Below are positions 21,108 to 32,395 of a stretch of DNA of 32,768 nucleotides, in pieces (position 1 is the first letter of the stretch; every line of letters starts with the position of its first letter). Position numbers and translations under genes: made by a program. The DNA is from Microcaldota archaeon (lineage in GTDB: Archaea; Micrarchaeota; Micrarchaeia; Burarchaeales; Fermentimicrarchaeaceae), in contig JACCLG010000052.1 of NCBI GenBank assembly GCA_013425335.1, forward strand, positions 1 through 32,768, written 5' to 3'. The notes below the pieces were generated by a model. It had not been told where the DNA came from. It saw nothing but the letters and a program-made list of their open reading frames with translations, and ran no database searches.

Positions 21108-21725
21108 ATGAGTGAACTTTTGATTCAGCAGGAAAAGTACCTTGAGGCGGGCATACACATAGGTACGAAGATAAAAACGCCCGACATGAACCCGTTCATA
21201 TACAAGGCAAGACAGGACAGATTGTATGTGCTGGACTTGAAGAAAGTTGACGAGCGGATAAGAGTTGCTACAAAGTTCATCTCTCACTACAAGCCCGAGG
21301 AGATTCTCATAGTTGCATCAAGGCTGTATGCAAGCAGCTCAGCGAAGAAATTCTGCGAGGCTGTCGGGTGCAGGGTTGTTGAGGGCAGGTTTGTGCCTGG
21401 CATACTGACCAACCCAGCTAGGGAGGATTTTTCAGAGCCCAAGCTGCTTTTCATATCAGACCCCAAGAATGAGAGGCAGGCAGTAAAGGAGGCGAACAGC
21501 ATGGGCATACCGGTAATCGCATTATGCGACACGGACAACTCCACAAAATTCATTGACTGGATTATTCCCTGCAACAACAAGGGAAGAAAATCCTTGGCGC
21601 TCATTTTCTATCTTCTAGCGAGGGAGATAGCCAGAATAAGAGGCGAGATTCCTGAGGGAGAGGAGTTCAAGCTGAAGCCAGAGGACTTCGAAGGAATGAG
21701 CGAGGAGCAAGAAACCTCAGCTTGA
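21108..21725 (+). CDS. rps2: 30S ribosomal protein S2 (uS2)
   Basis: S2 is a late-assembly protein on the back of the 30S. The 205-residue archaeal/SA-type product has YLEAGIHIGTKIKTPDMNPF near the N-terminus, VASRLYASSSAKKF, RFVPGILTNPAREDFSEPKL and CNNKGRKSLALIFYLLAREI. The start is 4 nt after ggggggt, 20 nt after tRNA-Pro. It is the last gene of the super-operon; its end overlaps the 3' end of the convergent lipoprotein gene by 9 bases. Confidence 0.96.
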   Translation: MSELLIQQEKYLEAGIHIGTKIKTPDMNPFIYKARQDRLYVLDLKKVDERIRVATKFISHYKPEEILIVASRLYASSSAKKFCEAVGCRVVEGRFVPGILTNPAREDFSEPKLLFISDPKNERQAVKEANSMGIPVIALCDTDNSTKFIDWIIPCNNKGRKSLALIFYLLAREIARIRGEIPEGEEFKLKPEDFEGMSEEQETSA

Positions 21726-22973
21726 TCCCTGGACGCATTGATTCTTGGCGAGTTGGTCGACTATGCTCTGGCATATTGTAGAGTTCTTGCTGTCTACTGC
21801 AATCTTACTGTAGCACTCATCCTGCCAGTTCGAGTAGGTTATATCCGCGCACGCTGAGAGATTGTATTTCTGGTTGTATAGTATTGAGGAGTAGCACGAA
21901 TCCCTCCTGTAGCTATTCGCTATCTGGTTGCATGAAGATGGGTTGCTGCTTGATTTTGCAATCGTTAGGTAGCAGAGGTCTCTGTTCAGAAGCTCTGTTA
22001 TCCTGACGCAGACTGAGGTGTCAGAAGTCAGATTGGCAACCTGCGCGTAGCAGGTTTCCCTGTCATCTATGCATTCATAGCAAATCATGCGTGAGCACAT
22101 GGAGGCATCCCCGGTATTCATTGCTATATCCGTGAAGCATTTGTCCTGGTACAGATGGGTGCTTATATTCAGGCATATGTTAGGGGCATTGTGCTCGCTT
22201 GCAAACGTTTCAAAGCAGGAATCCCTCTGAAGGTAGTCGGAGAGGAGATTGCACTTGCTGTAATCCCCTGTTATCCTCATAATGCACGTGTATCTGGTAT
22301 AGTTGGACGATATGCTGTCGCATATGGAAGCGTTTGAAGTGAGGTTTGCAAAATACTGGTAGCAGTCACCCCTCCCTCCGGAGCTGGAGAGCAGGCTACA
22401 GAGTATGTAGTTGTTCGTTGTTTTGGCAAAATCCAGGTAGCAGCTGTCCCAGAAAGACTGGTTAGCTATCTCACTGCATATGGAATAGTTGTTCTTTGCC
22501 TTCGCCAGGCACAGCTTATAATCATAATCGTCTGTTATGCCCTCGCAGAGCACGCTCTCGTCTCCGAGCTCCAGATGGCATTTCTTCCTGAGAGTGTCAT
22601 TCTCAATCTTATTGCATGTGGCAATCCCTGCCATGGGTGCAATGGTGTGGTAGCAGTCGTCTTTAACGTCCTTGTTCAATATCCTCTCGCATAGGGCGGG
22701 ATCTGTAAGGTTTATGGCGAACCTGAGGTTGCAGCTGTCCGTAAGTGAATCAGAGAATATGAAAGAGCATGCGGTGAGGTTGTTTCCCTCTATTGCGTTA
22801 TTATAGTAGCACCTGTCCCCGTCATCGCGGTTGGGCATCTGTGAGCACGGGACCACAACCACTGGCGGAGGGTTGACTGTTTCATTCTTACCCTGCTCCG
22901 GAGGGGTGTTGTAGGAAACACAGCCAAAGAGCAGCAGCAATACGAGCACCGACAGGACAATATTGAATTTCAT
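21717..22973 (-). CDS. Cys-repeat lipoprotein, paralogue 1 (418 aa)
   Basis: Function unknown. A signal peptide MKFNIVLSVLVLLLLFGC ends in a lipobox-like LFGC (Cys18), so the protein is probably lipid-anchored outside the membrane. A Pro-rich linker follows, then about 14 degenerate units of roughly 25-30 residues of the form C-x2-I-x(8-10)-D-x-C-Y-x3-A-x(6-10)-C (for example DSCYLDFAKTTNNYILC). Each unit has two cysteines. At least 12 N-x-S/T sequons occur. Similar proteins are at 27812 and 31544. I infer a disulfide-braced helical repeat solenoid, for binding or adhesion; no enzymatic motif is visible. A TATA-like element near 22995-23005 suggests a leaderless transcript. Confidence 0.85.
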   Translation of the reverse strand: MKFNIVLSVLVLLLLFGCVSYNTPPEQGKNETVNPPPVVVVPCSQMPNRDDGDRCYYNNAIEGNNLTACSFIFSDSLTDSCNLRFAINLTDPALCERILNKDVKDDCYHTIAPMAGIATCNKIENDTLRKKCHLELGDESVLCEGITDDYDYKLCLAKAKNNYSICSEIANQSFWDSCYLDFAKTTNNYILCSLLSSSGGRGDCYQYFANLTSNASICDSISSNYTRYTCIMRITGDYSKCNLLSDYLQRDSCFETFASEHNAPNICLNISTHLYQDKCFTDIAMNTGDASMCSRMICYECIDDRETCYAQVANLTSDTSVCVRITELLNRDLCYLTIAKSSSNPSSCNQIANSYRRDSCYSSILYNQKYNLSACADITYSNWQDECYSKIAVDSKNSTICQSIVDQLAKNQCVQGSS

Positions 22974-23121
22974 GAATAGGTTTAAACTGTATCTCTTTAT
23001 TAAGATTTCTTTACTGAAGTCAGTTTACCCTCTTGTCTTCATCTGGCTTACGCCATCAGTAATACCTCGTATCATCATTGGGAGTATTATGAGCCCATTG
23101 GTTTAAGTATATTGCTTTGAA

Positions 23122-23577
23122 TCATTTCTTCCCAAACTCGGTGGTTTGGTAGGGGTATACCACCCACTTCTCAGTCTCCTGAACGAAAAAATCAGGCTTA
23201 ATCCTTGAGTGCGGCTTGTAGTGCAGCGTTGCCGTCCTTATATTTTTTGAATGCTTTTTAAGCAGTTTTTTTGCTGTTAGAAGGGTCGCCCCAGTATCCG
23301 CAATATCATCCACAATCAGCACATTCCCGCAAACGAACCTGAGAGGCGGCCTCTGGCTTACTACTGGCTTCTTCCCACGCTTTTCTCCCTTATAGTAATA
23401 GATTTTGAATGCATACAGCTTCCTGATGCCAAGCCTGTCGCTGACGTAGACGGCAGGCACCAGCCCTCCTCTTCCTATCCCCACTATGCAGTCCGGCTTG
23501 AACTTCTTCCCCACTATACGGGCGAGCCTGTCACACATCTTCTCGAATTTCGATGCTGTTATGACCAGATGACGCAT
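23122..23577 (-). CDS. Phosphoribosyltransferase, purine-type
   Basis: A type I PRTase of about 151 residues, probably a hypoxanthine/xanthine-guanine salvage-type enzyme acting with PRPP; the exact base is not clear. It has the N-terminal CIVGIGRGGLVPAVYVSDRLG segment and the PRPP-binding loop VLIVDDIADTGATLLTAKK near residues 91-109. The frame runs upstream into tRNA-Gln, but an ATGATG at 23580-23575 lies just after aaggtg; the second ATG has the normal spacing and starts MRHLVITASKF. It lies downstream of tRNA-Gln on the same strand. Confidence 0.85.
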   Translation of the reverse strand: MRHLVITASKFEKMCDRLARIVGKKFKPDCIVGIGRGGLVPAVYVSDRLGIRKLYAFKIYYYKGEKRGKKPVVSQRPPLRFVCGNVLIVDDIADTGATLLTAKKLLKKHSKNIRTATLHYKPHSRIKPDFFVQETEKWVVYPYQTTEFGKK

Positions 23578-23597
23578 CATTGCACCTTGCATGGTAA

Positions 23598-23670
23598 TAG
23601 CCCCGGTCGGATTCGAACCGACGTGGGTGGGTCCAAAGCCCACCATCCTTGGCCACTAGATGACGGGGCT
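23598..23670 (-). tRNA. tRNA-Gln(UUG), no intron
   Basis: Read on the minus strand: acceptor AGCCCCG pairs with CGGGGCT, discriminator A. The anticodon stem GTGGG/CCCAC encloses CTTTGGA (anticodon TTG), and the T arm is GTCGG-TTCGAAT-CCGAC. At 73 nt it is the only one of the six tRNAs here without extra sequence. A TATA-like ttaaaac on the minus strand near 23684-23694 is its likely promoter. Confidence 0.94.
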
Positions 23671-23828
23671 GCTTTTAAGAATTTGAGTTTTAAGGTTAAT
23701 ATGCTTAATCATGCAGACGACTATGCTGAGCATTGCTCAGGAAGCAGGATTGACTGCTACGCCCATGCTATCAAAGAGTGAATCGGCAAACATAGGAGCA
23801 AAAATTGCAAGCAGTATATATGTGACTA
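23671..23828. other. Intergenic region between tRNA-Gln and proS
   Basis: The 158 nt hold the probable tRNA-Gln promoter. A plus-strand frame from 23711 encodes a hydrophobic peptide starting MQTTMLSIAQEAG but runs on into antisense of proS, so I do not call it a gene. Nothing else is supported. Confidence 0.3.
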
Positions 23829-25265
23829 TTAATATGCTTTACCAACGTATACAACCTGCTCTGCCTTCTTGCCGCATCTTATGCATTTTCCCTTTGGCTT
23901 CTCCTCCTTTCCAAGGGGCGTGCCCCGCATATCCCCGCCCACTGTCTCAGCCTTTATGTAATCAGCACATTCCACAGAGCCACACCACTCGACTTTGACC
24001 AGCCCTCCTCTTTCATTAAGGGTTTTCTTAAGCTGCTCCATATCCTTTGCTTCGGATATGTGCTCCCTGAAGAACTTCTCAGCCCTCTCCCAAAGGTTTT
24101 TCTGAATTTTCTCAAGAAGCTCTCGAACCTTTTCAACAAGCTCGCCCTCCTTGACGGTAATCTTCTCTCCGGTGTCTCTTCTCACTAGGACAAGCTGTTT
24201 TTTCTCAATGTCCTTTGGACCTATCTCAATTCTCACAGGGACTCCCTTGAGCTCCCAGTAGTTGTACTTCCAGCCAGGAGTATGCTCGGGCTTGTCGTCA
24301 ACCTTGGAGCTTATGCCCGCGCCTTCAAGAAGCTTCTTTACGGATTTGGCTTTCTCTGCAATCTTCTCATCCGAGCCTTTGAAGTATATTGGGATTATGA
24401 CTGCCATGAGAGGTGCAACGGAAGGAGGCATCACAAGGCCCTTGTCATCACCGTGAATTGCCACCATCGCACCGAAAATCCTCCATACTGCCGGCCCGTA
24501 GCAGGTCTGCCAGCCGTACTGCTCCTTGCCATCCTTGTCAACAAACTTTATGTTGAATGCCTTTGAGAAGTTCTGCCCCAGGAAGTGAGTTGAAGGCAAC
24601 TGTATCAACTTGCCGTCGGGCATTATGCTGTCTGCCGCATAGGTGCTCACAGCCCCGCAGAACTTGTCATGCTCCGGCCTCTTGAAAAATATGAATGGGA
24701 TTGCAAGCTCCTTGAGAAGCTTCCCTGTCGTATCCATGTCCTCCTCCACTTGCTTCTCGGCCTCCTTCTGAGTTTCGAAAACATCGTGGGCTTCCGTCCA
24801 GTAGAACTCCCTGCCCCGTATGAAAGGCCTAGTTGATTTCCCCTCGAATCTCCACACCTGGCAGCTTTGGTACATCTTGAAAGGCAAATCCCTCCACGTC
24901 CTTATCCATAGTGAATACATTGTGTACATGGCTGTTTCTGAGGTCGGCCTCATGGCAAGCCTCTCCGGGAATTTGGAATTCTCGCTTCCCCCCTCTGTCA
25001 CCCAGAATACGTCTGCGGAAAAGCCTTTCGCATGCTCCGCCTCCTTCTTGAAATACGACTCAGGGACAAGCGCAGGGAACCACGCCGGCTCATGCCCTTT
25101 CCTCTCAAGCTCGTCCTCGAGTATGAGGTACATCTTCTTCATAGTCCTGACAGACCAGGGCATGTGCGCCAGGAAGCCTTTCACGTTGTAGCGTATATCG
25201 GCTAGCTCTGCATCCTGAATTACTTCAGTGTACCATTCAGAAAAGTTGCTTTTTGGGTTTTTCAT
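23829..25265 (-). CDS. proS: Prolyl-tRNA synthetase, archaeal/eukaryotic type
   Basis: This class II synthetase charges tRNA-Pro; one substrate, tRNA-Pro(GGG), is encoded at 20960. The 478-residue product begins FSEWYTEVIQDAELADIRYNV and contains the motif 2 block LAMRPTSETAMYTMYSLWI and RPFIRGREFYWTEAHD, then an anticodon-binding domain (PIYFKGSDEKIAEKAKSVKKL). The C-terminal zinc-binding domain has C-x4-C (WCGSVEC) and C-x2-C (KCIRCGKK) and ends with Tyr, as in this subtype. The editing domain of bacterial enzymes is absent. Confidence 0.96.
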   Translation of the reverse strand: MKNPKSNFSEWYTEVIQDAELADIRYNVKGFLAHMPWSVRTMKKMYLILEDELERKGHEPAWFPALVPESYFKKEAEHAKGFSADVFWVTEGGSENSKFPERLAMRPTSETAMYTMYSLWIRTWRDLPFKMYQSCQVWRFEGKSTRPFIRGREFYWTEAHDVFETQKEAEKQVEEDMDTTGKLLKELAIPFIFFKRPEHDKFCGAVSTYAADSIMPDGKLIQLPSTHFLGQNFSKAFNIKFVDKDGKEQYGWQTCYGPAVWRIFGAMVAIHGDDKGLVMPPSVAPLMAVIIPIYFKGSDEKIAEKAKSVKKLLEGAGISSKVDDKPEHTPGWKYNYWELKGVPVRIEIGPKDIEKKQLVLVRRDTGEKITVKEGELVEKVRELLEKIQKNLWERAEKFFREHISEAKDMEQLKKTLNERGGLVKVEWCGSVECADYIKAETVGGDMRGTPLGKEEKPKGKCIRCGKKAEQVVYVGKAY

Positions 25266-25288
25266 CAGATCACTTTTACTGGTGAGAA

Positions 25289-25302
25289 TATAAATATTTA
25301 TA
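25289..25302 (-). promoter_or_regulatory. TATA box of proS
   Basis: The palindromic tataaatatttata lies 24-37 nt upstream of the proS ATG at 25265, so transcription would begin at or very near the start codon and give a leaderless mRNA. Confidence 0.55.
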
Positions 25303-25318
25303 CATACTTAGCAGAAGC

Positions 25319-25360
25319 GAGCGGGAAATCCCGCACCCTTTAGGGGTGGGAGCATGTCAC
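25319..25360 (+). mobile_element. Solo IS200/IS605-type right end (omega-RNA-like tail), copy 2
   Basis: Second copy of the 42-nt block at 631-672, differing at two positions, in the same orientation. The hairpin uses caccc with gggtg, and the block ends ggtgggagcatgtcac. No transposase or TnpB gene is adjacent: proS reads away on the left and the ferredoxin gene starts 47 nt to the right. The TATA box of that gene begins seven bases past the element. Confidence 0.5.
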
Positions 25361-25366
25361 AAAGGA

Positions 25367-25375
25367 TTTTATATA
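25367..25375 (+). promoter_or_regulatory. TATA box of the ferredoxin-thioredoxin gene
   Basis: The sequence ttttatata lies 32-40 nt before the ATG at 25407, giving a start near 25394 and a short leader that includes ggag. Confidence 0.5.
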
Positions 25376-25406
25376 TCGAGTGGTAAAGTGTATAGGAGCT
25401 GTTGGT

Positions 25407-26009
25407 ATGCCAGTATTTATAGACCCAAGGATCTGCGATAAGCAGATTATATGCGACCTGATGAAAGTGTGCCCCATGAATGCTATATACCAGGATGAGA
25501 AGGAGGGTACTGTTGGGGTAGACACCACAAAATGCAATGAGTGCATGCTATGCGTGAAGGCGTGCCCCTACCTTGCGGTGAGAGCTGCTAGGGATATGAA
25601 CGAGCTTGGGGAGTTTAAAGTGAGGTCAGGAACTATAAAATTCGACAGGGATGAACATCTCAGGAGAATCTATGGGGATGGGCCTGGCAGCATTGGCAAG
25701 GCTGAGTTGGATGATTCTAATTTCCAGGATAAGGTGAGTTCAAAGACGCCTACTCTGGTGAGCTTCTGGGGCGCGCACAGCAGTGTCATCGCCCCTTCAT
25801 TGGAGTGGATTGCAAGCAAGTACAAAGGCAAACTGAATGTCGCGCATATAAAGGTTGCGGAGAACCCCAAGAGCCGCAAGGAATATGCGATAACCACGAC
25901 TCCCACACTGATTCTTTTCAAAAACGGAAGGCAGATTGGGAGGCTTGAGGGGATCAGGCACAGGGAGACGGTGCGCGTCTGGATTGATATGAAGCTTAAG
26001 GCTCGCTGA
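25407..26009 (+). CDS. Ferredoxin domain fused to a cysteine-less thioredoxin-like domain
   Basis: Function unknown; a redox or scaffold role is inferred. The first 65 residues hold a ferredoxin fold: a canonical CNECMLCVKACP ([4Fe-4S] site, near residues 45-56) and, before it, an unusual C-x5-C-x5-CP (ICDKQIICDLMKVCP). That is seven cysteines where two full clusters need eight. Residues about 110-195 look like thioredoxin (TLVSFWGAHSSVIAP, then the cis-Pro loop TTTPTLILFKNGRQIGRLEG). The active site W-C-x-x-C is replaced by W-G-A-H-S-S and shortened by about three residues, so it cannot do dithiol exchange. The 3' end overlaps the convergent DUF1624 gene by 14 bases. Confidence 0.85.
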   Translation: MPVFIDPRICDKQIICDLMKVCPMNAIYQDEKEGTVGVDTTKCNECMLCVKACPYLAVRAARDMNELGEFKVRSGTIKFDRDEHLRRIYGDGPGSIGKAELDDSNFQDKVSSKTPTLVSFWGAHSSVIAPSLEWIASKYKGKLNVAHIKVAENPKSRKEYAITTTPTLILFKNGRQIGRLEGIRHRETVRVWIDMKLKAR

Positions 26010-26925
26010 ATCTCAAATAAAGTTTTGATGCTATTACCAGCAAAGAAATCAGGGCGAGGGTTATCAGCGCTACCTGTTCTGTGCTGAAAGAATTGTTGAT
26101 GTGCAAAGCAAGCGCAAGGATTAGCACTGGGTAGTTCAGTACGAATATGAGTAATGCGGATTTTCCAAATTCCTCGAGTATTCTTGAGCTCACATGCTTC
26201 AGTTCGACAAGCCAGTAGACTGGAATCATGAGCAGAATGCAGAAGCCTGAGGATAGGACAATGTGGGGGAAGGTGCCTATGCCCCTGTCGTATGTCATGA
26301 AGTAGCTCAGCACAAACCCGGCCAGTATGAGGAGCAGGCCTGCTCCCAGAAAGAACGGCAGTGATTTTCTTTTTTTCTTCATGATGCGCTCTCCTGCCAT
26401 GTAGCCAGCCAGCACTATTCCGCTCAGCGGTACAGCACCCAGTAAACCCCCATTCGGGAATTGGGATGCAATGAAGTATACAAGAGGGAATGATGTTATG
26501 TAGGAGTAGCACAGCCCTACCACGGCAATTGTGAGTAGCTTCATCCTGTCTGAGAAGCGTATGAAGAACATTGCAATCAAACCCGCAAGACTTATGGCTT
26601 CTAGCACCCACCATATGTAGTGCACCAATGCAAGGAGTATGAAGTCCAGGAACAGCCCTATGATGAATATTCTCGAGTACCTTTTGACAACATCACTCAC
26701 CGCCTCATCATCAGTTTTTTTGCTCTGCGAGATAGAGAGGTATGCGGAAACTCCTGATATGAAGAGAAAGAGCGCAAGCGCCATGTCGCCAATTGAGATG
26801 ACGCCTCTTATGCCGTAGTTAAGGAGTGGGATGGGCTGGATTGGAAAGATATTTACGAAAAAATGCAGTGTGACCATGAAGAGTACGGCTATTCCTCTGT
26901 ATGCATCAACCCAGCGGTACCTCAT
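25996..26925 (-). CDS. DUF1624/HGSNAT-like membrane protein
   Basis: The 309-residue protein begins MRYRWVDAYRGIAVLFMVTLH, the R-x-x-x-D-x-x-R-G-x-A-x-x-x-M-x-x-H pattern of the DUF1624/heparan-glucosaminide acetyltransferase-like family. About nine hydrophobic segments follow, for example LALFLFISGVSAYLSI and FFLGAGLLLILAGFVLSYFM. Family members are thought to move acyl groups across membranes; the substrate here is unknown. An acyl transfer to surface glycans would fit with the sequon-rich lipoproteins nearby, but that is speculation. Confidence 0.75.
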   Translation of the reverse strand: MRYRWVDAYRGIAVLFMVTLHFFVNIFPIQPIPLLNYGIRGVISIGDMALALFLFISGVSAYLSISQSKKTDDEAVSDVVKRYSRIFIIGLFLDFILLALVHYIWWVLEAISLAGLIAMFFIRFSDRMKLLTIAVVGLCYSYITSFPLVYFIASQFPNGGLLGAVPLSGIVLAGYMAGERIMKKKRKSLPFFLGAGLLLILAGFVLSYFMTYDRGIGTFPHIVLSSGFCILLMIPVYWLVELKHVSSRILEEFGKSALLIFVLNYPVLILALALHINNSFSTEQVALITLALISLLVIASKLYLRFSEP

Positions 26926-26960
26926 GAGGATGATTGGCTCTGTGAGTTATTAATATTTGA

Positions 26961-27050
26961 TGGACCAGAGCCGATTAAATTTCAGGTTTTGGATTGGGCC
27001 CTTGCGATTTTTGCGATGAATTAATTAATAATTAAAAAGTAATTAATTTT
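26961..27050 (+). repeat. Dispersed intergenic repeat R, copy 1
   Basis: About 90 nt starting tggaccagagccgattaaa and ending in an AT-rich aagtaattaatt tract. Its first part shares 15 of 15 bases (26965-26979) with copy 3 (28599-28613), and the AT-rich tail matches both other copies. It lies between the DUF1624 gene start and the toxin gene end, in the same orientation as the other copies. Confidence 0.65.
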
Positions 27051-27066
27051 TGGACAACTCTCTGTC

Positions 27067-27318
27067 TCAGACATTCCTGTAAGCATCGCTTCTTTTCCTG
27101 AAGAAAAGCAGGGTTATAACTTCATTCTCAACTTTGTAAACCAATCTGAAATTCTCAATTCTCACGGAAAAGAAGTTGTGATGATGGTGCAGCCTCTTGA
27201 ACCTTGTTGGCTCGGCCTTAATCTTTTCTATTGCGTTTTCCACATGCAGCTTCAGTGCCTTGTCTGTATGTTTTACTTCATCTGCGAATGTCTTAGTGAA
27301 TTCCATTCTGTAAGACAC
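27067..27318 (-). CDS. RelE/ParE-family toxin
   Basis: An 83-residue basic protein with the RelE-fold pattern: MEFTKTFADEVKHTDKALKL for the first strand and helices, AIEKIKAEPTRFKRL, then SVRIENFRLVYKVENEVITL for the strands and the conserved basic/aromatic end. RelE toxins cleave mRNA in the ribosomal A site, and ParE toxins attack gyrase; the sequence does not decide between them. It lies 4 bp downstream of a probable antitoxin on the same strand. Confidence 0.82.
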   Translation of the reverse strand: MSYRMEFTKTFADEVKHTDKALKLHVENAIEKIKAEPTRFKRLHHHHNFFSVRIENFRLVYKVENEVITLLFFRKRSDAYRNV

Positions 27319-27322
27319 TTCA

Positions 27323-27577
27323 TCATCTCAAGAGGGTTTTCAGCTTGCTCTCAGGATAGACTTTCTCCTTACCTGCTTTTATCCTCTCTTCAATCTTGAT
27401 TGCCAAGTTCAAATCTTCCTCGTCCTCACTCAGGTTCTGGGAGACGAGGTGGTATTTCTCGTTAAGCTGGAGCACTCCGAGCCTCAGGGCTTCCGCCTTT
27501 GTCTTGACAACGCCCCTCTTCACGGCCTCGTCAATAATCCTCTCAACGTATCCATCGAAATGCATAGTCACGTTCAT
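27323..27577 (-). CDS. Antitoxin, ribbon-helix-helix type
   Basis: An 84-residue acidic protein. Residues 1-45 (MNVTMHFDGYVERIIDEAVK, then GVVKTKAEALRLGVLQL) fit a strand-helix-helix DNA-binding domain, and residues 50-84 are a charged helical segment that could wrap the toxin. It is first in a two-gene operon, as usual for antitoxins that repress their own promoter. The identification rests on pattern and context. Confidence 0.75.
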   Translation of the reverse strand: MNVTMHFDGYVERIIDEAVKRGVVKTKAEALRLGVLQLNEKYHLVSQNLSEDEEDLNLAIKIEERIKAGKEKVYPESKLKTLLR

Positions 27578-27625
27578 AAAATCACTATTAAATTTATAGC
27601 ATTATTAATATAAAAAGCTTACTAT

Positions 27626-27690
27626 CCGGGGTAGTTTTTTGATTAGGCCCATAGGATTTGTTAAATTAATAATTAAGAAAGTAATTAATC
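27626..27690 (+). repeat. Dispersed intergenic repeat R, copy 2 (shorter)
   Basis: Shares ttaggcccatag (27643-27654) and ttaaattaat (27661-27670) with copy 3 in the same order and spacing, and the aaagtaattaat tail with all copies. The left part (ccagagccgattaaa) is missing or diverged. It lies between the antitoxin start and the second lipoprotein gene. Confidence 0.6.
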
Positions 27691-27770
27691 AAGTTCGAAA
27701 ACTGCTTCTGCTGAACAGCGTCCGAGGCTTTGCAACTTTCAATTTAATATTCGCTTTCTGACTAGATAGC

Positions 27771-27780
27771 TTTTTAAATA
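27771..27780 (+). promoter_or_regulatory. TATA box of lipoprotein paralogue 2
   Basis: The sequence tttttaaata lies about 32-41 nt before the ATG at 27812, giving a leader of about 14 nt that contains gggtgatgg, a good ribosome binding site. Confidence 0.5.
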
Positions 27781-27811
27781 CCGATATGCCAATATTTTTG
27801 GGTGATGGAAT

Positions 27812-28471
27812 ATGAAAGTTTATCTCCTGCTTTTTCTTTCAGTTGTAGCTTTATTCCTAGCCGGCTGTAGTCAGTTAGGCGGCCAGGTTCAAAGGGAATA
27901 TGTCTGCCCCAACGGAGTGATTGTTACAAACGCCTCGCAATGCCCTCCAGTGCAGCAGGTTGTTGAGCAGACAGACCCTGAGATGAAAATCTGCGAGGAG
28001 ATGCCGGATGTAGAGAACATGCATTTCTCAGACTATTGCTACATGGGTTTGGCGTATAAAAGGGAAAATGTATCAATATGCAAAAAAATAAGCGAAAACC
28101 AAAAAGCCAGTTGTTACTCTGGTCTTGCGGTGTTTAAAAGCGATGCAACTCTTTGCGATGGTGCTGGAACGCAGAAGAATAACTGCTATTCTACTTATGC
28201 AACACAAAAGGATGATGTAACTGCTTGCGATAAGATTACTGAGACCTATATTAAGGACAGTTGCTATTCACAGTATGCATCAAAAGCTGGCAATTCCACT
28301 GTTTGTGAGAAGATAAAAACATTGAATTCCAAAGACAACTGCTATTCAAACATTGCTTCATCGCAATGCGATACCTCACTCTGTAATAAGATAGTTAACA
28401 GCAACCTGAAGGATCAGTGCTTGAGAAATATACAATCCTGTAGTGGACAGACTCCAAAACAGATTGAATAA
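27812..28471 (+). CDS. Cys-repeat lipoprotein, paralogue 2 (219 aa)
   Basis: Function unknown. The signal peptide ends in a clear lipobox LAGC (Cys19). Residues about 35-50 hold a C-x12-C pair, and from about residue 67 some six units of the family repeat follow, such as CDKITETYIKDSCYSQYASK. The units are more regular than in paralogue 1. Three sequons (NAS, NVS, NST) are present. It is flanked by repeat copies 2 and 3, as if carried as one unit. Confidence 0.85.
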   Translation: MKVYLLLFLSVVALFLAGCSQLGGQVQREYVCPNGVIVTNASQCPPVQQVVEQTDPEMKICEEMPDVENMHFSDYCYMGLAYKRENVSICKKISENQKASCYSGLAVFKSDATLCDGAGTQKNNCYSTYATQKDDVTACDKITETYIKDSCYSQYASKAGNSTVCEKIKTLNSKDNCYSNIASSQCDTSLCNKIVNSNLKDQCLRNIQSCSGQTPKQIE

Positions 28472-28793
28472 TGTAAAAAGAGTGTGTATGGAATTGTGAC
28501 TAACCTCACCAACCGCTTGGAGTCTACAGCATCAGAGGAGACGACGTATTTTTCGAAGTTAAATTTGCTTTGGCTTTTGAGAATAATAAGGAGTGGGGCC
28601 AGAGCCGATTAAACTTCAAGTTTTTGGTTAGGCCCATAGAAATTATTAAATTAATAAGAAAGTAAGTAATTAATTTAGACACCCTTCCTTCTGGCTTTTC
28701 TAGTTTTGTCAAGTAGATTACAACTCTAGAATTTAAGGTTTAATCTTTTTGTGTAATCAGCACACAACCTTTCTATTTCTCTATCTCCTTTTT
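28472..28793. other. AT-rich intergenic region with repeat copy 3
   Basis: The 322 nt between the second lipoprotein and the 337-residue gene hold repeat copy 3 (28589-28676). The rest is AT-rich with several T tracts, which may act as 3' signals for the converging genes. A 62-codon minus-strand frame here lies across the repeat and looks fortuitous. Confidence 0.4.
28589..28676 (+). repeat. Dispersed intergenic repeat R, copy 3, with a tRNA-Trp 3'-end duplicate
   Basis: It begins aggagtggggccagag (28589-28604), identical over 16 bases to 29852-29867, which is the 3' end of tRNA-Trp plus five flanking bases. It then continues ccgattaaac like copy 1 and ttaggcccatag like copy 2. The tRNA-end duplicate in the same orientation has the form of an attachment-site repeat. 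Confidence 0.65.
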
Positions 28794-29807
28794 TCAGACA
28801 GGATACTCGGTCACCCCGAGCAACTTCAGGTAGGTGTCCATGGTTCTGTCTTTCCTCTCCTTGTAATGGATATGCAGCCCGTCATTCTCCTTCTTTAGTA
28901 TCCTGTGATTGTCGCTATATGGCATTGCTATTATCACATAGCTTCCGTTTTCTATGTTTGGATTCGAGGCTATGCTGTCAAGCATCCTCTTGCTGTCAAA
29001 GAAGCCTCCTCCCCACCCCATTCTAATTCTGCGCATAACCCCGCATTCTGGCATTTTATACGCGTTGAAAAGCAGTCTTCTCAAACCCTGCTCTGAATCT
29101 GCGTCATGCTTACTCAGCCAGTCCACTGCAAACCCCATGCTCGGCAGTATAATGACGTTTGACATGTGGATGAGATACCTTCCTTTACCTGCTTCTTCTA
29201 TTCCATCCTGTATACGTTTGACTTTCAAAGTTATGTCCGCATGTTTTTCACCATATGCATCCGATTTGAATAGAAGATGCGAATCTTTTGCGGCCATGTC
29301 GAACTCCTTGTTATGCGCAGAGAATACCGCTAATGCGTGCCATACCTGGGCTTTATTTATTTCATACAGCTGTGCAGTGATGACCGAGTTATTCTCCATC
29401 AATGCATTAAGTATTGAAATATGTTTGTCGGGCCCGCCAAGCACGGCGATGTATGAATCTATACCCCGCATCTGCCTGATGCTTTTTATGAAACTCGGGC
29501 TTAATATTTCGTTTGAACGTGCCAGAGTTATCCTATCGCTTGGTGCGGGCAACAGACCCAGGTAGTGCACTGAAAATTTTCCCGCCAGATCAACACTCAC
29601 TTCTCTGGAATGGGGCAGCCTTAGTGCTTTCAGCTCATTTATGATGGGATTTTTTCCTAAATATGTATTGTCATCGGCAATAAGCTGTGCCACTCTATCC
29701 ACGGTTTGACTAACCATTTGGTCGGCGTTGTGCCCCCTTGTTATTCTAACTTCCGCCTCTCTTTGCCCTCCTGCTTCGTATTCAGGTTTTTTCAGCTTCT
29801 CTGGCAT
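28794..29807 (-). CDS. Unrecognised 337-residue protein, possible Rossmann-like fold
   Basis: I do not recognise a family with confidence. There is no signal peptide or membrane segment. Residues about 115-150 (SYIAVLGGPDKHISILNALM, then ITAQLYEINKAQ) resemble a glycine loop followed by an acidic strand end, and GRYLIHMSNVIILPSMGF comes later. This is loosely like class I SAM-dependent transferases of the DUF3419 kind, whose N-x-x-Q after the acidic residue looks similar. Composition is ordinary and the reading frame intact. A TATA-like ataattttaata near 29830-29842 suggests a near-leaderless mRNA. It lies between tRNA-Trp and the duplicated tRNA end, so it may be cargo. Confidence 0.7.
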   Translation of the reverse strand: MPEKLKKPEYEAGGQREAEVRITRGHNADQMVSQTVDRVAQLIADDNTYLGKNPIINELKALRLPHSREVSVDLAGKFSVHYLGLLPAPSDRITLARSNEILSPSFIKSIRQMRGIDSYIAVLGGPDKHISILNALMENNSVITAQLYEINKAQVWHALAVFSAHNKEFDMAAKDSHLLFKSDAYGEKHADITLKVKRIQDGIEEAGKGRYLIHMSNVIILPSMGFAVDWLSKHDADSEQGLRRLLFNAYKMPECGVMRRIRMGWGGGFFDSKRMLDSIASNPNIENGSYVIIAMPYSDNHRILKKENDGLHIHYKERKDRTMDTYLKLLGVTEYPV

Positions 29808-29856
29808 GCTTAAATTATGCCTGTTCCACCTATTAAAATTATGCTAAGATCAGGAG

Positions 29857-30023
29857 TGGGGCCAGAGGGATTTGAACCCTCATTAACAGGTGTCTCATAA
29901 AGCATCTCATCTTTCTTCAATGCTCCAATTCTAAATCATCCCCGAAGGTCATTCCACCTGTAACAATGCTCCTCTATAAAAGGAACTGGAGCCTGTTGTT
30001 CTGCCAAGTTATACCATGGCCCC
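29857..30023 (-). tRNA. tRNA-Trp(CCA) with a 94-nt guide-bearing intron
   Basis: Minus strand: acceptor GGGGCCA (30023-30017) pairs with TGGCCCC (29864-29858), discriminator A29857. The anticodon stem ACAGG/CCTGT encloses CTCCAG before and A after the intron, giving anticodon CCA with the intron at 37/38 (29985-29892). The T arm is GAGGG-TTCAAAT-CCCTC. The intron holds TGGAGC, complementary to G31-A36, five bases before TTGA (D-box-like), placing C34 at N+5. It also holds ACAGGT, complementary to 38-43, before ATGA, placing C39 at N+5. ATGATTT between them resembles box C'. Archaeal tRNA-Trp introns are known to guide 2'-O-methylation at 34 and 39. Confidence 0.93.
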
Positions 30024-30054
30024 TTGCACAGTTATTTTGAAAAATCAGGTTTAA

Positions 30055-31194
30055 TTACTTTCCTATATCCCCAACTTTTTTGGTTATCTCCTCCAGAACC
30101 ATCCTGTCAAAGCCCTTGCGTATCCTGAGGCCTGCGGCAACATCATGGCCTCCCCCGCTCTCAATTGCATCCGTCATCTCACTTTTCAATTCCCCTATGA
30201 GCTGATTTGCATTGAAGCCTGCCGCCCTCGCCTTGCCGTTTGCCCTGAAATGCATTACTCCTTCCTCGTATGCTATTGTCACAAGCGGCGCATCCAGTTT
30301 CCTGTCATACTCTTCATGAACCTCCCCGCATATCCTGCCCCTGGCGGGAAACTCGCCGCTTCTCACCTTGTCGAGCTTCACCAGGACAAGCCTGAAGCCG
30401 TTGCTTAGCTCCTTCAGCTTTGAATACCTCATCGCATCCTTCTTCACTAACTCAAGCTTCTTCATTGCCCTGTTGTATATGGAATTGATATTCTGCGGGT
30501 TCTTCAGCACTGAGCTATAGACCTCAAGGCTCTCCGCGAATTCAGAGCTTGAGGCCATGAAATCCAGCACAAGCGCCTTCCTCTCCAACTCCTCCTCATG
30601 GCGCGTGAGCAGCTTGCTCTTGTCCCCTATGAGCGCAATCTCCTGGAGCTCTTCAATCCCATCAAACTGCTTGATTTTCTTCGCTATCTCCCCTGCTATG
30701 AAGCCTGCGGAATAGTCGGAATTCCCCCCGTGCAGCCAGGGCGTCACAAGCAACGTTGCCATTTCCTTTATGCCAGGCACCAGGGGGTGGTGGTCAACAA
30801 TCAGTATGTTGAAGTTCGATTTCTTCAGGGCGTTGAGTGAGTCTATGCTTTCCAAATTCACAGAGAAGTCAAGCAGGACTGCAAGCGGAGCAGAGGCTGG
30901 CTGCATGTTCCTGATGAGCTCCATATCGTCCAAGACGCTTCTCAGCGTATATATCGCAGAATGGTTGTTGAAGATGAGCATCTTCTTCCTGTAACCCTCC
31001 CACTCCTTCTCCCCAAGCATACTTTTGGATGAGGAGTAGACTGAAAGGGCAGCGCATATCCCGTCGCAATCGCCATGATGCCGCAGGAGCATGGGGCTGC
31101 GGGCTGCCAGGCACTTCTTTATCATTTCTGCAGCTCTCCCAAAATCTTCACTCATGCTGCCCAAAACGCCGTTTGACGGCAGGTTATTTGGCAT
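30055..31194 (-). CDS. DHH-family phosphoesterase (RecJ/GAN-like)
   Basis: A probable single-stranded DNA or RNA exonuclease, or oligonucleotide phosphodiesterase. The 379-residue product has motif I MLLRHHGDCDGICAALSVYS (H-x-D-x-D-G type, near residues 35-54), the DHH motif ILIVDHHPLVPGI (near 130), and the C-terminal DHHA1 nucleotide loop ESGGGHDVAAG. This architecture matches archaeal RecJ-like proteins, some of which bind GINS. I chose ATG at 31194; TTG at 31209 and ATG at 31155 are alternatives. It shares a short divergent promoter region with L35Ae. Confidence 0.9.
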   Translation of the reverse strand: MPNNLPSNGVLGSMSEDFGRAAEMIKKCLAARSPMLLRHHGDCDGICAALSVYSSSKSMLGEKEWEGYRKKMLIFNNHSAIYTLRSVLDDMELIRNMQPASAPLAVLLDFSVNLESIDSLNALKKSNFNILIVDHHPLVPGIKEMATLLVTPWLHGGNSDYSAGFIAGEIAKKIKQFDGIEELQEIALIGDKSKLLTRHEEELERKALVLDFMASSSEFAESLEVYSSVLKNPQNINSIYNRAMKKLELVKKDAMRYSKLKELSNGFRLVLVKLDKVRSGEFPARGRICGEVHEEYDRKLDAPLVTIAYEEGVMHFRANGKARAAGFNANQLIGELKSEMTDAIESGGGHDVAAGLRIRKGFDRMVLEEITKKVGDIGK

Positions 31195-31211
31195 GATAGA
31201 ATTGCACAAAG

Positions 31212-31225
31212 AGATATTAATAATT
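31212..31225. promoter_or_regulatory. Shared divergent TATA region
   Basis: Only 58 bp separate the DHH gene start (31194) and the L35Ae start (31253). The single AT-rich element agatattaataatt is near-palindromic and lies about 20-30 nt from each probable start site, so it may serve both directions. Confidence 0.4.
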
Positions 31226-31252
31226 GGTGAGTAAAAACCTAAGGTGATTCAA

Positions 31253-31522
31253 ATGGAAGCCAGAATAGTGAACTACAGAATGGGTAGTACACGAACCATA
31301 GTGAAGTACACGAACCAGTATATACTCTCATTGGATGGCGTTACTGACAAGGCTAAGGCGCAGGAGTATGTAGGCAAGAAGGTCTTATGGAAGACCCCAA
31401 GCGGCAAGGAAGTTGCCGGCAAAGTTACCAACACCCACGGAAACGGGGGAGCGCTGCTTGCCAGATTTGACAATGGGCTGCCAGGGCAGGCGCTCGGCAG
31501 CATGGTGAGCATTGAGGGGTAG
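31253..31522 (+). CDS. rpl35ae: 50S ribosomal protein L35Ae (eL33)
   Basis: An archaeal/eukaryotic large-subunit protein. The 89-residue product has ARIVNYRMGSTRTIVKYTNQ, VGKKVLWKTPSGKEVAGKVT and the conserved HGNGGALLARFDNGLPGQAL, ending SMVSIEG. The start is 5 nt after aaggtga, the same signal as in the super-operon. It is encoded alone, divergent from the DHH gene and convergent with the third lipoprotein. Confidence 0.95.
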   Translation: MEARIVNYRMGSTRTIVKYTNQYILSLDGVTDKAKAQEYVGKKVLWKTPSGKEVAGKVTNTHGNGGALLARFDNGLPGQALGSMVSIEG

Positions 31523-31543
31523 GGGGCAATTGCGCGAGAAAGC

Positions 31544-32395
31544 TCATCTCTTGACAATCTGGTTGCACTGGTCCCTCAAATCCACTGAAGAGATGAAGGC
31601 GCACACCTTCTCGTCCTTTGTGTTCTTGGCTATCTGTATATAGCAGTTGTCCTTCATCGACTGCGACGGCATGGTCTGGCATTTGCTCGGGTCATCTGAA
31701 TAAGTCGCAGCAATGTAGAGGCATGCCTGCTTGCCCATTGAGTCGGCTATCTGGTTGCAGGTTGCAGGGTCTATTTTGCCTGTTATGCAAATCTCCTTGG
31801 AGAATTCATTGCTTATCTGGTTGCAGTAGCTCGTGTCATTCAGGCTTTTTGCAAGAGTGAAGATGCACCTGTCAACCATATCCTGGTTGAACCCGTTCTC
31901 AGCTATGAGAAGCCTGCAGAATGATATATCCTTATTCTCGATGGCAAGCCACTCGAATATCTGGTTCTTGCAGAGGTTTCTTGAGGCGTTGATTGATATC
32001 GGCTCGCACATATTCGGGTTTTCGTGGGCAATCGCTATCTTTGAGATGCAGTTGTCCCTCTGGTAGCTGAAGTTGATTCTCATGCAGAAGGAAGTATCGT
32101 TTTTCGCTGCGGCCAGCCTAGAGAAGCAGTCGTCCTTGCGCACTCCCGACATCTTCTCGCATGTTGAGATATTCGTCACAGTGCCGTTCATGAGAAGCAT
32201 GCTGTAGCACTGCTCTGCAATGTAGGTTCTGTTTATCTCGTCGCATTTGGAGATGTTGCTGGTTTGAGTGGCAACCATGAGCAGGCAGTTGTCCTTCTGG
32301 GACGGGTCCCAGAGGTGGTAGCACCTGTTTGGCGATTCGTCAACAAAGATGCATCCTGAGAGCACCAGGAATAAGAGCAGAAGGTATTTCTTCAT
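31544..32395 (-). CDS. Cys-repeat lipoprotein, paralogue 3 (283 aa)
   Basis: Function unknown. The signal peptide MKKYLLLLFLVLSGC has a lipobox LSGC (Cys15). About nine repeat units follow, for example SKCDEINRTYIAEQCYSMLL and TSFCMRINFSYQRDNCISKI, with the same two-cysteine spacing as paralogues 1 and 2. At least seven N-x-S/T sequons are present. It lies just downstream of the 23S rRNA 3' end and on the same strand; no close TATA box stands out. Confidence 0.85.
   Translation of the reverse strand: MKKYLLLLFLVLSGCIFVDESPNRCYHLWDPSQKDNCLLMVATQTSNISKCDEINRTYIAEQCYSMLLMNGTVTNISTCEKMSGVRKDDCFSRLAAAKNDTSFCMRINFSYQRDNCISKIAIAHENPNMCEPISINASRNLCKNQIFEWLAIENKDISFCRLLIAENGFNQDMVDRCIFTLAKSLNDTSYCNQISNEFSKEICITGKIDPATCNQIADSMGKQACLYIAATYSDDPSKCQTMPSQSMKDNCYIQIAKNTKDEKVCAFISSVDLRDQCNQIVKR

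Follow-up and report, generated by a model that had tools for sequence, protein, structure and literature searches.

What are the three cysteine-rich lipoproteins encoded on one contig of a Microcaldota archaeon, and what might they do at the surface of the cell? The window analyzed here is the entire contig (JACCLG010000052.1, assembly GCA_013425335.1; 32,768 nucleotides; contig C2 in our numbering) from a genome of about 1.0 Mb, which belongs to Candidatus Micrarchaeota and is related to Candidatus Fermentimicrarchaeum limneticum. A first-pass annotation, made from the letters alone, had described three open reading frames (ORFs) with lipobox signal peptides. All three were confirmed, on the minus, plus, and minus strands, and a signal peptide with a lipobox cysteine, the mark of a prokaryotic lipoprotein, was found in 3/3 of the proteins. 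Our preferred explanation, which we consider probable, is that they are membrane-tethered, disulfide-braced binding scaffolds of the cell envelope, built from an uncatalogued 26-residue alpha/alpha-solenoid repeat. The features are as follows, with model confidence given as the predicted local distance difference test (pLDDT).

21717..22973, minus strand: P0002, a 418-residue lipoprotein with 15 two-cysteine units; relatives of similar length occur across the class
22920..22973, minus strand: signal peptide and lipobox cysteine of P0002, residues 1-18, ending ...LLLLFGC; the lipobox position is conserved in alignment A5
21735..22847, minus strand: repeat region of P0002, residues 43-413, a predicted alpha/alpha solenoid with a pLDDT of ~95
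22071..22082, minus strand: extra CYEC pair of P0002 (C298 and C301) within one unit, seen in alignment A5
27812..28471, plus strand: P0003, a 219-residue lipoprotein with 6 units and an N-terminal CPNG...C pair; orthologues occur across the order
27812..27868, plus strand: signal peptide and lipobox cysteine of P0003, residues 1-19, ending ...LFLAGC, read from the sequence
27992..28420, plus strand: repeat region of P0003, residues 61-203, which includes the extra C186; the extra C210 lies just past its end
31544..32395, minus strand: P0001, a 283-residue lipoprotein with 10 units in a perfect A-B series; orthologues occur in the genus
32351..32395, minus strand: signal peptide and lipobox cysteine of P0001, residues 1-15, ending ...LVLSGC, read from the sequence
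31565..32323, minus strand: repeat region of P0001, residues 25-277

The repeat was defined from 403 regular units taken from many relatives. Its consensus is C1-x2-[IL]4-x5-[KR]10-D11-x-C13-Y14-x3-A18-x4-[DN]23-x-[ST]25-x, with a period of 26 residues that results from an alternation of cysteine gaps of 11 and 13 (C-x11-C, then x13). This alternation confirmed the regular pairs of cysteines described previously, and a strict count with a cysteine spacing of 9-14 reproduced the earlier estimate of about 14, 6, and 9 units for P0002, P0003, and P0001, respectively. When looser pairs were counted, the numbers were 15, 6, and 10. The strict count for P0003 includes the non-repeat N-terminal pair C32/C44 and misses the loose unit C61/C76. 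Cysteine content is very high, at 7-8% of the proteins.

A profile search with the repeat unit and a count of paralogues had been proposed as checks. The unit profile matched all three genes at E values of 1e-22 to 1e-24 (best copies, 8e-25), which supports the view that the lipoproteins are paralogous, and it revealed two further paralogues, bringing the genome to five copies. One, of 355 residues (contig C28), has four hydrophobic, probably transmembrane, segments ahead of its repeats; the other, of 119 residues (contig C14), is a lipoprotein. Since a single profile finds the three genes and two more, the repeat is not due to chance. Searches of Pfam, NCBIfam, and PDB sequences gave no convincing match for the proteins or their profiles, in agreement with the absence of a named domain noted on first reading, and literature searches turned up no account of the repeat. 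By these sequence comparisons, the two-cysteine, 26-residue repeat matches no catalogued family.

The fold was then considered. An AlphaFold2 model of P0002, built with a 13-sequence alignment, had a mean pLDDT of 89.6, rising to ~95 in the repeats. Each unit was modeled as a helix A of ~6 residues and a helix B of ~15 residues, with no strand in the repeat region and every repeat cysteine in a helix. The model of P0003 had the same helix pattern in its repeats, again with a pLDDT of ~95. The helical solenoid suggested from the sequence, for which structure prediction had been proposed as a check, is thus predicted in two paralogues, and in all likelihood the repeats form an alpha/alpha solenoid. 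Foldseek returned only generic TPR-, retromer-, and Sel1-like solenoids, with one marginal match among viral models, and gave no match in the PDB at an E value of 1e-3.

These fold matches could mean that the proteins are true Sel1 or TPR members that have diverged past profile detection. The top PDB match was a TPR protein, the TPR domain of O-GlcNAc transferase (OGT; 1W3B, 6EOU; E value of 6e-3, not significant at 1e-3), and giant-virus Sel1 proteins were among the matches. However, no listed PDB match to the larger model had a template modeling (TM) score above 0.27, and the scores for 6EOU were 0.14-0.16. The period is 26 residues instead of 34-38, and neither a Sel1 nor a TPR Pfam match was seen in 13 members at E values up to 1. 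We therefore regard divergence from Sel1 or TPR as highly unlikely. The likeness to TPR is that of a generic alpha/alpha solenoid, but TPR proteins have a period of 34, are typically cytosolic, and lack disulfides; no 34-residue signature or TPR profile match was found in our proteins.

The closest analogues are two Helicobacter systems that resemble the repeat proteins in outline. The first comprises the cysteine-rich, Sel1-like Hcp proteins (HcpB and HcpC), secreted alpha/alpha superhelices of tandem helical hairpins with regular disulfides (PMC3851747, PMC2581425). AlphaFold2 secondary structure agrees with such a superhelix in the Micrarchaeota proteins. Nevertheless, Hcp repeats are 36-38 residues long with a Sel1 signature, while the Micrarchaeota repeat is 26 residues with C-x11-C, and the Sel1 profile matched neither the three window proteins (E values up to 10) nor 13 relatives (E values up to 1). 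In Hcp, each disulfide links the last part of a repeat with the beginning of the following one. The Micrarchaeota proteins also differ from Hcp in being lipid- or membrane-anchored and archaeal. The repeat region of CagY from the Helicobacter pylori Cag secretion system likewise consists of surface-exposed tandem alpha-helical modules with regular cysteines and likely disulfides (PMC2581425). It differs in that its A motif spans 38-39 residues with Lys/Glu multiplets and is accompanied by a distinct B motif, and its DNA is highly repetitive and contracts or expands, whereas the Micrarchaeota units are diverged and stable in number. The 26-residue unit has a different consensus, and no Pfam CagY match was found. 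Finally, CHCH/CX9C proteins are also helical hairpins, with disulfides bridging both helices, but each of their domains is a single hairpin with two CX9C motifs, compared to one cysteine per helix in long arrays here. The CX9C profile reached only an E value of 0.46 in 1/13 members, and the spacing of C-x11-C followed by x13 contains no twin CX9C.

Are the cysteines joined? They were counted in 113 complete family proteins after the lipobox cysteine or transmembrane part had been removed. The extracytoplasmic number was even in 107/113 proteins (values of 6 to 68), compared to 80/143 control non-repeat ORFs from the same loci. Among the 103 proteins with cysteines outside strict units, the number of such cysteines was even in 97, so the even totals are not merely the outcome of unit duplication. 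Extra cysteines also come and go together: C186 and C210 of P0003 are both lost in three orthologues, and C298 and C301 of P0002 are both absent in distant relatives. In ~1,000 units, hardly any gaps of ~26 residues were seen, such as the loss of one cysteine would leave, and these losses were too few to reveal the connectivity. The parity and the paired gain and loss support the earlier suggestion of disulfide-bonded pairs, and the repeat cysteines are very probably disulfide-paired. The series tend to open with an A-type cysteine (93/113) and close with a B-type cysteine (86/113), which favors pairing within the unit without proving it.

Several points weigh against a disulfide-braced scaffold. 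Even cysteine numbers would also be compatible with paired metal ligands. The figure of 107/113 comes from related proteins and its p-value is thus inflated and only indicative. A search of the genus did not turn up VKOR, which had been considered as the disulfide oxidase of the lineage. The DsbA-like match found in the source genome is weak (E value of 1e-7) and GILT-like. Furthermore, the three genes sit among housekeeping genes and not in a functional cluster. The weak match is a membrane-anchored protein with tandem GILT/DsbA-like domains (CPYG twice; L128:11361-12962, plus strand, contig C14). Its gene lies ~8 kb from the C14 repeat paralogue and is near the small paralogue in two genomes. 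This protein is a candidate thiol-disulfide partner, and its presence in the source genome counts in favor of disulfide pairing.

The first of these points raises the possibility of thiol-based metal binding or storage, in which the cysteines would face a common core and bind soft metals such as Cu, Zn, or Hg. The cysteine content and the helical positions of the cysteines would suit this role. On the other hand, the repeat has one cysteine per helix and no CxxC or CxxxC clusters, the cysteines outside the repeat units are also even in number, and the proteins are extracellular, where thiols tend to oxidize. Metal binding is, in our judgment, very improbable.

With regard to the surface location, a lipobox was present in 65 of the 113 family proteins and a transmembrane anchor in 46. 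Dense N-glycosylation sequons had been reported for two of the window proteins, and two proteins indeed had more than expected from shuffled sequences (13 vs 6.3, p = 0.001; 8 vs 3.3, p = 0.01), while the excess in the third was not significant (3 vs 2.3). STT3, for N-glycosylation, is encoded in the source genome, and asparagine is modestly in excess where the context permits a sequon (odds ratio of 2.0, p = 0.003). However, the density is partly a by-product of the repeat, because helix A begins with the motif [DN]-x-[ST]-x-C, which gives rise to N-x-[ST]. As a proof of glycosylation, the dense sequons are therefore weakened, since N-x-[ST] is inherent in the unit ([DN]23-x-[ST]25).

The spread of the repeat was assessed with profile A4, made from 48 segments of two units each, and all genomes scanned were Micrarchaeota. 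The repeat was found in 129/146 genomes of the phylum, and in 213/295 at a stricter cut-off. P0002 can be aligned from end to end with relatives of ~380-470 residues across the class, and P0003 has orthologues across the order with 40-88% identity. Protein lengths are constant within the genus. The units of P0002 are ~28% identical to one another (22% without the cysteines), compared to 72% identity between the whole protein and a same-genus orthologue, which indicates that the repeats are old. No tandem repeats were found at the DNA level. The proposal of a lineage-specific family growing by repeat and gene duplication did not hold up: the repeat is phylum-wide, lengths are constant, and the units are diverged. 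Lineage-specific expansion was thus rejected, as was recent repeat slippage, given the lack of tandem DNA repeats. A viral, phage, or plasmid origin had no matches in scans of limited reach.

Further architectures were seen among the relatives. At locus L141 (genome G191, contig C20), a 929-residue lipoprotein with 68 mature cysteines and at least 30 units adjoins a second repeat protein. In a subfamily (L033, L041, L043, L074, L166, and L172), an N-terminal domain of ~230 residues, carrying a C-x2-[IVL]-x-Y-x-[IV]-D-Y... motif, is followed by a few repeat units.

One possible function is adhesion to a host or partner cell, in which solenoid rods would project from the membrane and bind surface proteins or glycans of the partner. 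Micrarchaeota are thought to be partner-dependent, and the surface anchoring, the several paralogues, and the sequon excess in two proteins would all fit an adhesin. P0002 has also diverged more quickly, with 54-72% identity among members of the genus, against 81-89% for the neighboring prolyl-tRNA synthetase (ProRS). Typical adhesins are variable, however, while throughout the class relatives of the 418-residue type are about as long as P0002, and the repeat number is stable in the genus. Moreover, no fused lectin or adhesin domain was seen, and the surface proteins described for the cultured Mia14 belong to the PKD and beta-propeller types, in a paper that does not mention cysteine or disulfide (PMC5498576). 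An adhesin is for these reasons unlikely. Since the P0002 type is stable in length and widespread, unlike a variable adhesin, an envelope binding scaffold is favored.

In such a scaffold, each unit would open with a short helix A ([DN]-x-[ST]-x-C-x2-I) and pass through a tight turn into a longer helix B ([KR]-D-x-C-Y-x3-A). The cysteines of the two helices would most likely be joined, giving one disulfide per unit, and the disulfides would lock the array as a rod or superhelix and keep it folded in the extracellular space. The solenoid would be held on the outside of the cytoplasmic membrane by its lipid anchor or, among relatives, by a transmembrane helix. A binding groove is usual in extracellular alpha-solenoids whose units are braced. 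By analogy with other alpha-solenoids (TPR and Sel1/Hcp), the solenoid would most likely bind proteins or peptides, and a binding or scaffold role is, on balance, slightly favored.

A narrower version of binding is the capture of extracytoplasmic peptides for uptake, with the groove acting as a low-specificity solute-binding protein. Solute-binding proteins can be lipid-anchored in the same way, and TPR-type superhelices bind ligands in an amphipathic groove (PMC3851747), but no recognizable transporter gene adjoins any of the three genes. We consider peptide uptake decidedly unlikely.

The neighborhood of the three genes is made up of housekeeping genes (uL13, uS9, RpoN, uS2, ProRS, a DHH phosphoesterase, and L35Ae). 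Gene order around P0002 and P0001 is conserved in the genus, while P0003 lies elsewhere in other genomes. Adjoining P0003, a ParE/RelE-type toxin and a candidate antitoxin are encoded at 27067-27577 on the minus strand. Among the genomes compared, P0003 is at this toxin-adjoining site only in the source genome; a similar toxin/antitoxin pair lies ~3 kb from the locus of a distant P0003 orthologue (L048). At 25380-26009 on the plus strand, a 4Fe-4S ferredoxin domain is fused to a thioredoxin domain whose active site reads VSFWGAHSSV, with the CxxC replaced, and an orthologue of this fusion was present in four same-genus genomes. A 337-residue ORF at 28794-29807 on the minus strand matched nothing in Pfam, and no counterpart of it was found when same-genus loci were compared.

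If the preferred explanation of a disulfide-braced envelope scaffold is right, nearly all genomes in this phylum of tiny archaea encode an uncatalogued repeat protein of the cell surface, one type of which is conserved across the class. An oxidizing disulfide pathway outside these archaeal cells would be implied. The proteins would also offer natural disulfide-locked, short-helix solenoids in long arrays, which may be useful for protein design. In a bolder form that we consider unlikely, the repeat family would be a main extracellular protein-building toolkit of Micrarchaeota, a disulfide-locked counterpart of Sel1/TPR, and part of the interface with partner cells. The more restrained explanation would already provide a named target for learning how cells that depend on partners construct their envelope and engage with other cells.

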